The translations under genes and the position numbers were made by a program. A stretch of DNA of 35,032 nt from Bdellovibrionales bacterium (GTDB taxonomy: Bacteria > Bdellovibrionota > Bdellovibrionia > Bdellovibrionales > UBA1609). How positions within the stretch are numbered: the first letter of the stretch is position 1; each line of letters starts with the position of its first letter. The notes beneath the pieces were generated by a model, which had not been told where the DNA came from, did no database searches, and saw only the letters and a list, made by a program, of their open reading frames with translations. Shown one piece after another: positions 10,701 to 32,821 of the stretch. The stretch is from positions 1 to 35,032 of the forward strand of contig JAIBAM010000003.1 of the NCBI GenBank assembly GCA_019695175.1, given 5' to 3'.

Positions 10701-11767
10701 AGCAACAGACCCAATGGGACGCTAGAGTTAAAGGACAAAAAAATTCTTTCTTGCTTGAATTAGGGTTGCTAATTTTTGGGGCGATTGCAATTTACACAGG
10801 AATTTCCTTCTTTAAAAAAATGAGGATTCAGAGCCTCATACAGCGTGGAGAAAATCTTGAAAAACTATTAGCCAATATTGGGCTTGGCTCCCGTAGTACT
10901 AGGTTAGGTGAACCACTTGCTATAGATTCAACAGTGATTACAGATGAAGGATTAGACATTGCCACCCAAAGTTTACTTCATACACTTAGCAATTCTCGTA
11001 GAGTCGAACCAAAAAACGTTTTAAAAAGTGTTCCAGATGCTGCCCCCCCCCCCAATCAGGGTTCAGCTACAAAACCAAATTTTGCAACCCCTGTAAGACT
11101 ACCCCCACCATATAGTGTTAATTTTCAAACTCTACCTGCACAGATACGTCGTTGGATACAAGGAACACCATCCTCCTCAAGAAGCGACCTGATTTTTCAT
11201 ACTGAAGATGTTTTAAGGCAATGGGTGAGACGGCAAATATTACGTGATGCGTCAGCAGCTCAAAAAATAATAGATGAGCAAGTTGCATATTTTAAAAATT
11301 TTTATCAAAGGTACCGTCATCAATTATCCGTTCTGGGTTTAGAACACCTAACTTTTGACCAACTTCTTCTTATTAGAAGTATAGTCCCCGAACTCAATTC
11401 ACTTTTACAAATGGGTAAAATAACTTACGTTGAACACTCCATTAAAATGGGCGCACTTCGCGAAATTGAGCAAGAACTCGAACCCATCCTTGAGGTTCTT
11501 ATATCCCAGAAAAATCCTACCGCCAGAAGATTCTTGGCTAGCGCTCTCGTAAAACTCAGTTTCACTACAAAGCAAATTGGTGAGCTTACCGAGAAATTAC
11601 AACAAACGTATGGCCTAGCAGACTTTAGAGCTCTTATCCTGGGTGATTCTGTGACAACGGCTCAGCAACTAAAAGGCCCAAAAATGCCTGAAAATAATCC
11701 CACTCAATCTAAGTCCGTCTTTGTTATTTCTCCCGATTGGGTAAAATTTCTTAATGAGGTATTTTAG
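7787..11767 (+). CDS. Very large exported/membrane-anchored protein, unknown
   Basis: Protein of 1326 residues that I do not recognise. The GTG start is supported by GAGGTAA 5 nt upstream. A Sec-type signal region (residues 1-36, ending near PTKAWG) is followed by a Ser/Pro-rich stretch and a long, mainly helical, charged region. Hydrophobic segments lie near residues 885-950 (FLFGNYIGSIMGIIGSLF and beyond) and 987-1011 (LLELGLLIFGAIAIYTGISF). A Pro-rich linker then leads into a helical tail of about 200 residues. The layout suggests a large periplasmic part anchored in the inner membrane with a separate C-terminal domain. An uninterrupted C11 run encodes the APPP of the linker. The next gene starts 2 nt after the stop, so the two are translationally coupled. 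Confidence 0.8.
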   Translation: MNKVNSFIFNVIREGFKAILSASLLVTTTSLPTKAWGLSLTLSGSSSSQIPLSAAPMSPIPNPTGHTQQLDPISTIAENDIPSDLMKFYKPIFSSLSSKVTCALYYGTPGLCNSPPKENEIFEIEKKISEWSKYIQEKLTNPHDELASNIKYNALRSGITIYLYFCAVYLIELLRTSIDIPLDPDKWREKYSLFIDINDLKSSEVLNFLVQVNREATNNQRVFTSYERKNGKGQLVLSLPLKLVPDIIYFKEGHRFSKEKNGANLALLVAIDFLLMNQFTVRRLLKNSNLKVDIPPSLLARFPSLRFKQSSMEIEFKLAKDDFIRGKAMEMILPIMKELHSTEMYFVTNQFLVDSYLIKSENIGDNYSTTIQKKLHDNDESSLSTVQNIKSLIALMPIEAGTPTDFLESLSGSIAHAKAIAMREKYFSPAELRNSNVQPEYQNEYINEIDQVIRLRAEKYKEEIKPLLQKYSNKLSSMYLAMDTREVTKLSTSITNTARIISSLAKEKNQPVNFKTLVNLRKEQIEKIVSNKNFFSPNIDFEKDPLIVNLKTLLNFESYEMAASFHQEVLIYLLSQFQPKQQKPGLSPMMSSPPVALDISDPENIMRWLQFVEVGKNMENPAKRTDKVSLMAQDKINEKNVMIKATQLENNLKKWIRIGDLLVLFNGRFKDKFRNPIKKSIIEHNEWTGDNLGWMMAWNQDDAPTAIDTKIPTVADLNLSDDEYAVYQKNLKQVLLKPYPFLNLKMSPGDSSWNTTSERTGEYTIYDWLIFEPSSPEAIIQIGLKKVDENISKQLLALTGEKDFLTSWRDKALGLINQITTSSPQEVTSIEHAVLIHDSLLLQKEISRHPALLSSYGKLQSKLIEKSDPYKTWESSNKYIDKMFMTMMAWQALKIFKHFLFGNYIGSIMGIIGSLFDFPGLKLFSHTVNTLFAISITTKWIDSFIVTPFLSEVSRNFSMCLEENNCLITPEEQQTQWDARVKGQKNSFLLELGLLIFGAIAIYTGISFFKKMRIQSLIQRGENLEKLLANIGLGSRSTRLGEPLAIDSTVITDEGLDIATQSLLHTLSNSRRVEPKNVLKSVPDAAPPPNQGSATKPNFATPVRLPPPYSVNFQTLPAQIRRWIQGTPSSSRSDLIFHTEDVLRQWVRRQILRDASAAQKIIDEQVAYFKNFYQRYRHQLSVLGLEHLTFDQLLLIRSIVPELNSLLQMGKITYVEHSIKMGALREIEQELEPILEVLISQKNPTARRFLASALVKLSFTTKQIGELTEKLQQTYGLADFRALILGDSVTTAQQLKGPKMPENNPTQSKSVFVISPDWVKFLNEVF
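11043..11053 (+). repeat. C11 homopolymer inside the 1326-aa gene
   Basis: Eleven consecutive C residues encode Ala-Pro-Pro-Pro (about residues 1086-1089), between the last hydrophobic segment and the C-terminal helical tail. Slippage by one base would frameshift and remove about 240 residues. Long C/G runs are classic phase-variation tracts, and this one stands out in AT-rich DNA. Confidence 0.85.
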
Positions 11768-30644: not shown

Positions 30645-32245
30645 TCACCTTTGAGGAACTTGGTCTTCAAAACTTGATAAATAATCAATGAGTTTATCCA
30701 ATGAAGCTGCAACTTTTCTCTTAAGTACATCTATGCCTTCGCCCACACCTACTCTATGCAGTTCGGGAACATCACGACCCCTCACAGTTTTACTTAAAAT
30801 ACCCTTAAAAATAACGATACTACCGAATCGCCAAGGGCTATCGTCCCCATTCGGAAAATAGTACTTTCTTAGAGCATACAATATCTTTTTAGGACTTAAC
30901 GTCATGAATATTTCTTGACCGTCATCTCCCTGAACACTCGTGAGCGTCTCATGAAAGATATAAAATAAAAACAGTGAAGCTACCTCTTGATCGAAAACAT
31001 TCTGCTGATCAAGCCATCTGAGTAAGTTCATGGCAAAATCAAGTTGAGGACTTACAAGTCCTAATACAAATAGAAATCTGGATCTTAAATCTTCAGCAGT
31101 GACTTCTGGACTTGAGATCGGCGGGAATAAAGGGCTAACCATAGCAAAACGAGACCCAAGACGCGCCAAAAAAATACTACCCACATGATTTATGTCATGC
31201 CGGATAAAATTTGCTACTGATTTCAAATCACCATCAACTATTTGCTGACTGTCGGTCAATTGAACCGAACCCAGTAAAGGAATTACTGATCTTAGGACAA
31301 TATCAACAATGCTTAATCCCTGAGGGGATACTACGGTCAAGAGTAAGGGAAGTTGATTAAGAAGTGTATCTCCATTATCACGAAACCCACCTCTTTCTGT
31401 CTTAAAGACGTCAGTTTCAAGCATATCCGCCACAGTGATATAATCCTCCATGGCGAAAACAATAAATTCATAGCTTATTGCTTGATCTGAACTTAATATC
31501 TTCTGAAGATTAACAATAAAATCTCTTATGAAGGTTTTTTCTTCTTGTGGAAAAGTATTTTTATCAAAGTGCCTTTTTATTAATACAGATTCATTGAAAG
31601 GAATAAAATTTTCATCTCCTTTTAACGTAACAACAGAAGGCAAAAAATCTTGACCAAAACCCTCAACTACTGTTGCCTCTAACCTCCCTAAAATCCAACT
31701 CACAGTATCTCTGAAGCTAGGATGAGTAAATTTCCGCGGACTCCTTCCGTCCGCAACCCAGCGTACGAATTCAATATAATGGTGCAGAACCTCAAGCAAT
31801 TTTCTCGCAGAGGATTGCAACTCTGGCGACTTCAAATTGTCAATCAAACCCTGTAGAGCTGTAGTTTGGGATTGGATCTGAGACATCATTGCTTCAATTT
31901 TTACCCGCTGTTCAGCTGGGAAGGATAAGGTTTGTTTTGTTTTGTTTTGTTTTGTTTTGTTTTGTTTTGGTTTGTTACCAACAATGCACAAACATTAGCT
32001 TCAAAACCAGAAGTAAGGGGGCGTTGACCCATCACAGTCCCACTAGCAGATGACCAATTTTGAAAAACAACCGCGTTAATGAAAAAAGTGAACAGGACCT
32101 GATAGACGATCACTCTTCTTCTATCTGGATATTTTTTTGTTTCCACAATAAACCCTTCCAAAAGTTGTGAATGTTGTAATTGATTACCCTTAAGTACAAC
32201 GAGAACAATTTCTTTATTTAAAGAATGCAAGATCTGTTCCAGCAT
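30645..32245 (-). pseudogene. Exported protein gene, frame-split at a TTTTG repeat (phase-variable?)
   Basis: Two minus-strand frames overlap at a pentanucleotide tract. The first (32245 to 31901, 114 aa) holds a hydrophobic signal-like segment (VIVYQVLFTFFINAVVF then WSSASG). The second (through the tract to 30645) carries about 425 residues of unrecognised, mostly helical protein (begins TLSFPAEQRVKIEAMMSQIQ, ends SSFEDQVPQR). The frames differ so that removing one 5-nt unit joins them: 1601 minus 5 is 1596 nt, or 532 codons including the stop. Repeats read NKTKQ in every cycle and contain no stops in any frame. ATG 32245 has no ribosome site; GTG 32113 would give a compact signal peptide. 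I read it as one gene in an OFF state; ordinary decay is the alternative. Confidence 0.65.
31931..31969 (-). repeat. Pentanucleotide tract, seven TTTTG units plus a partial
   Basis: TTTG is followed by seven perfect TTTTG units (31935-31969); the coding strand reads CAAAA repeats. The tract sits exactly where the two frames of the split gene meet. Five is not a multiple of three, so each unit gained or lost changes the frame. It is the longest simple repeat I see in the window. Confidence 0.95.
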
Positions 32246-32596: not shown

Positions 32597-32670
32597 GCTG
32601 ACTCATTCTCGCTTAACTCATTCTCGCTTAACTCATTCTCGCTTAACTCATTCGCGTTTAACTCATTCGC
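32597..32670 (+). repeat. 15-bp minisatellite, five units
   Basis: Units based on GCTTAACTCATTCTC run head to tail: a 14-bp variant at 32597-32610, two identical copies (32611-32640), a copy ending CGC (32641-32655) and GTTTAACTCATTCGC (32656-32670). It lies between the IS4 fragment and gpmA. There are no spacers between units, so it is not CRISPR. It may be a polymorphic locus or a multiple binding site upstream of gpmA. Confidence 0.9.
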
Positions 32671-32821
32671 GCTTAGATGAAGTAAACTGAGCCGACACTT
32701 GGACGTAACTTCTACGAAAACTCTAAAAATTCTTAAAAAGATTTGCCAGCAGATCTTCTAGCCGCTACTTTTTCAACAAATATTTTCTAATGTAATTTGT
32801 TGGATTAAAAAGGTGGGCCTC

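Follow-up and report, generated by a model that had tools for sequence, protein, structure and literature searches.

The question raised by this locus is whether two long minus-strand reading frames that meet at a short tandem repeat are the two parts of a single gene, and whether the number of repeat units then decides if its full-length product is made. The window (the whole stretch of DNA analysed, 35,032 nucleotides) corresponds to C24:1-35032 of a 2.6-Mb assembly in 56 contigs, and the comparisons drew on one genome per species.

A pentanucleotide array at a frame break

The N-terminal frame (31901-32245, minus strand) and the C-terminal frame (open from 31994 to 30645, minus strand) overlap by 94 nt, from 31901 to 31994, and the seven perfect TTTTG units at 31935-31969 lie inside this overlap, as a sequence-only reading of the window had described. 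Its arithmetic also holds: one unit fewer or two units more joins the frames, and one repeat phase in three gives a full-length product. Whichever frame is read, the array encodes KTKQN repeats. It lies between the conserved Cys and the protein body, in agreement with the earlier placement just after the signal region, and the stretch of about 16 residues that it encodes is probably an insertion in the linker, judged by comparison with the two paralogues described below. A TTTTG run of four or more units occurs nowhere else in the 2.6-Mb genome, and a 219-kb sample of it held no other array in which a 2-9-mer is repeated five or more times. At the array density of that sample, the chance of one array falling in a given 94-nt stretch is about 4e-4, a figure calculated post hoc. 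The published repeat cut-off for pentanucleotides is five copies (PMC6321876); the seven units found here lie inside the reading frame, and changing their number shifts translation between a single full frame and premature stops.

The 532 codons (stop included) reported previously are correct if translation is counted from ATG 32245, but GTG 32146 is probably the better start (Table 1). Since ATG 32245 has no Shine-Dalgarno sequence, the upstream extension is probably not translated. The joined product from GTG 32146 has 498 residues instead of 531, and the frame as assembled ends after 81 residues, leaving the gene OFF.

Table 1. Positions of the features of the locus within the window.
Feature	Position	Strand	Remarks
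Body in the -1 frame	30645..31934	-	Open over 429 codons
Conserved HE pair (IFHE)	30948..30953	-	
FIRHDINH, invariant HDxxH motif	31185..31208	-	
N-terminal frame, probable GTG start to stop	31901..32146	-	81 residues as assembled; shares hydrophobic segment and Cys with homologues
Perfect array (TTTTG)7; coding strand (AAAAC)7	31935..31969	.	No other TTTTG run of four or more units in the genome
Cys codon, the family's single conserved N-terminal Cys	31988..31990	-	By match to homologues
Signal-peptide hydrophobic core (VIVYQVLFTFFINAVVF)	32060..32110	-	
Upstream part of the earlier ORF, from ATG 32245	32147..32245	-	No Shine-Dalgarno; probably untranslated
Shine-Dalgarno-like GGAAGGG	32153..32159	-	6 nt before GTG 32146; from sequence
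15-bp tandem array, 5 copies	32601..32675	.	Divergent intergenic region upstream of the gene

The two frames match one exported protein family

Searching with the body found one paralogue, and these two together with one distant single-ORF homologue gave a three-member core profile. Only this core profile opened the family; close profiles searched directly in viral and genome collections found none. A 22-sequence profile then matched 79 of the 369 genomes of the phylum at E <= 0.05, the weakest of these matches probably being due to chance, and matched the window member, itself part of the profile, at E 1.9e-27. Matches include Bdellovibrio qaytius, B. bacteriovorus kdesi, and Pseudobdellovibrio and Bdellovibrio MAGs. 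These named records assign the window to the phylum Bdellovibrionota, and genomes of its order contain such close matches too, one of them at the position of the B. qaytius locus. The family is new and unnamed, being absent from Pfam, NCBIfam and PHROGs. Its members share one layout, in which a signal peptide and a single conserved Cys are followed by H-D-x-x-H and further on by F-x-x-x-H-E.

Outside this genome we counted about 73 distinct members uncut by a locus or contig edge. Homologues that stop naturally at either frame had been named as evidence against a joined gene; instead, about 66 of the 73 are a single ORF in which the hydrophobic signal shares the frame of the body. A Cys follows within 35 residues of the signal core in 60 of 64 scored intact homologues, compared with a chance expectation of about 3%. 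Cysteine is otherwise nearly absent (0.08%) from these exported family members.

The window protein has the same layout. Its N-terminal frame holds a signal peptide, with the signal-like segment noted previously measured as a 12-residue hydrophobic stretch of mean hydropathy 2.48, followed by one Cys, and its C-terminal frame holds HDxxH and F-x-x-x-HE. Because the signal and the family Cys are in one frame and both motifs are in the other, these comparisons show the two frames to belong to one gene for a putative exported protein. The incomplete genome from the same genus lacks even the neighbouring gene.

Predicted structure and possible function

The AlphaFold model of the window body is mostly helical (pLDDT 77.8), and that of a homologue from the same order reached a pLDDT of 91.7. 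Neither model had a PDB structure match at E <= 0.001; the best VIA Z values against the PDB (4.7 for the window body and 6.6 for the homologue) are in the range expected of helical models, and such weak matches between a predicted model and the PDB do not demonstrate a new fold. PDB sequence searches gave no match of note, and domain scans with Pfam, NCBIfam and PHROGs gave none. One viral model, of an uncharacterised Cafeteria roenbergensis virus protein, matched the family's fold (model m094fe74dd39b) at E 8e-5, hinting that the domain may occur in giant viruses too. A weaker match of the family fold to a Terrestrivirus protein was also seen. The combination of HDxxH and HE is perhaps a metal site, and a metal-dependent hydrolase would be a guess. 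What the analysis points to is a widespread, unnamed exported family with a strict HDxxH/HE signature that is confidently modelled and has no clear PDB match.

Accuracy of the assembled repeat count

A frame break in a repeat could be produced by an assembly or base-calling error in the number of units, with the gene really in frame, and repeat counts are the likeliest site of error in an assembly of 56 contigs. Nevertheless, ordinary short reads are much longer than the 35-bp array, and the 142 intact ORFs of the 219-kb sample run in frame through hundreds of A/T homopolymers of 6-9. No other frame-broken pair was established in those 219 kb, by a screen whose score threshold missed the C2 paralogue. 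We therefore consider a miscount very improbable. Of five overlapping ORF pairs flagged in the 219 kb and family-scanned, three were separate complete genes (thiolase with CoA-transferase, GspG with a GspH-like pseudopilin, and SecD with SecF) and two had no family match. Systematic homopolymer error was rejected, since A/T tracts in intact ORFs are read correctly and those neighbouring pairs for which a check was possible are separate complete genes.

G/C tracts were also recorded. The genome, with 39% GC, contains about 20 distinct tracts of 9 or more, and in genomes of the same family the number of matches ranges from 0 to over 100. The longest in the 219-kb sample is an in-frame C11 at 11043-11053 of the window, inside a 1326-aa ORF. 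At L167, L181, L185 and L186, nine-base poly-G tracts lie immediately upstream of ATG starts or are separated from them by a few bases, resembling an over-long Shine-Dalgarno sequence.

Broken family members in this and other genomes

Both paralogues in the genome are likewise split by a -1 frameshift, one at C2:46782-47959 (L008:4783-5960, plus strand) and the other on C3 (L064:4100-2755, minus strand), the first frame of each carrying the signal peptide and Cys and the second HDxxH/HE. Their frame overlaps contain T6 and T8 tracts, respectively, and not the repeat of the window gene; all three family breaks in the genome are -1. The sequence-only reading of a phase-variable locus for an exported protein stands in so far as one gene is broken at a slippage-prone repeat; it did not foresee the breaks in the paralogues or the relaxed selection that they may reflect.

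Members are broken in 3 of 3 cases here versus 7-9 of 73 elsewhere (Fisher p ~0.002-0.003), indicating that the family is unusually broken in this genome, which can mean either phase variation or relaxed selection. Under the latter, the family would no longer be needed in the lineage, repeat slippage would be the first lesion of a recent pseudogene, and a return to ON would be unselected. The concentration of broken members is compatible with such decay, as is the state of members in other genomes: a T7 tract in the signal peptide of L141, tandem copies at L106:331-3254 of which one is interrupted by TGA in frame and one is shifted by -1 close to A7, a -1 shift without a repeat in L116, an in-frame TAG in L108, and truncation of L105 and L107 (L091 is possibly disrupted as well). 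T6 and T8 tracts are moreover unremarkable, with 143 and 27, respectively, in the 142 intact ORFs of the 219-kb sample, and the A/T tract cut-off used for phase variation in Campylobacter is ten (PMC6321876). Because the paralogue tracts are common in intact ORFs and fall under that cut-off, simple decay is as good an explanation of the paralogue breaks as switching. On the other hand, there is one lesion per gene in all three, and none has lost HDxxH or HE; the window gene has all of its motifs and one frameshift, rather than several lesions or lost conserved residues, and a seven-unit array unique in the genome is more than ordinary decay needs. A recent pseudogene is a serious rival, although we regard it as somewhat unlikely.

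That all three breaks are -1 could also suggest programmed -1 frameshifting or transcriptional slippage, by which a joined protein would be made from every split gene. T TTT TTA lies in the zero frame of the C3 paralogue, whose T8 tract may permit programmed frameshifting, and the sequence in the C2 paralogue is GTT TTT TAG. However, a single-base deletion gives -1 as well, and programmed frameshifting cannot explain the window locus because (AAAAC)7 contains neither a slippery heptamer nor a long homopolymer. As an account of all three genes it is highly unlikely.

A probable reversible repeat-length switch

The best reading of the window locus, and one that we consider reasonably probable, is a reversible repeat-length switch in a gene that is now OFF; both slippage in living cells and its usefulness to them are presumed. 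One gene for an exported protein would carry an out-of-frame (AAAAC)7 in its linker, slipped-strand mispairing during replication would add or remove units, and one phase in three would yield the protein of ~498 aa, the assembled phase yielding 81 residues. In favour of this switch are the position of the array exactly within the frame overlap, a copy number above the cut-off, the Cys in the N-terminal frame, the retained body motifs, and an otherwise intact gene whose homologues are unbroken single ORFs with signal peptides. Against it are the two paralogues, out of frame at T6 and T8, and the lack of arrays in other homologues: none of four or more units was present in any other family member examined.

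An extension to all three members, each switched by slippage in a different tract ((AAAAC)7, T6 and T8) to form a small combinatorial repertoire, is doubtful; if it were so, a predatory-bacterium lineage would possess an ON/OFF repertoire of exported proteins. Most known cases of ON/OFF switching by repeats come from host-associated pathogens, and to our knowledge none has been described in a predatory-bacterium lineage. If the switch is real, it would suggest that predators, too, experience fluctuating selection on their exposed proteins, whether from prey, from phages or from hosts.

Comparison with known phase-variable systems

The closest parallel is offered by the Neisseria opa genes, in which a CTCTT pentanucleotide repeat within the leader region switches the frame (PMC6803597). 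Both cases have an intragenic pentanucleotide near an exported N-terminus, a frame set by the number of units, and several members per genome. Unlike in opa, the AAAAC repeat of the window is placed after the signal region, the paralogues lack a shared repeat and the switch is a presumed one. The window protein is predicted to be a mostly helical HDxxH/HE protein, whereas Opa proteins are outer-membrane adhesins; membership of the Opa family was rejected on the lack of a Pfam or NCBIfam match and of a PDB sequence match of note, and on the mostly helical model. The tetranucleotide contingency loci of Haemophilus influenzae show translational ON/OFF control by intragenic repeat slippage (PMC2651432) and share the principle proposed here, with a different unit, phylum and gene product. 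Within the family itself, the members in B. bacteriovorus kdesi, B. qaytius and the MAGs have the same layout as the window gene but no array of this kind, and most are unbroken. No report of repeat-driven phase variation in Bdellovibrio was found in the open-access literature. The presumed mechanism is of a known kind, and the protein family and the phylum are new for it.
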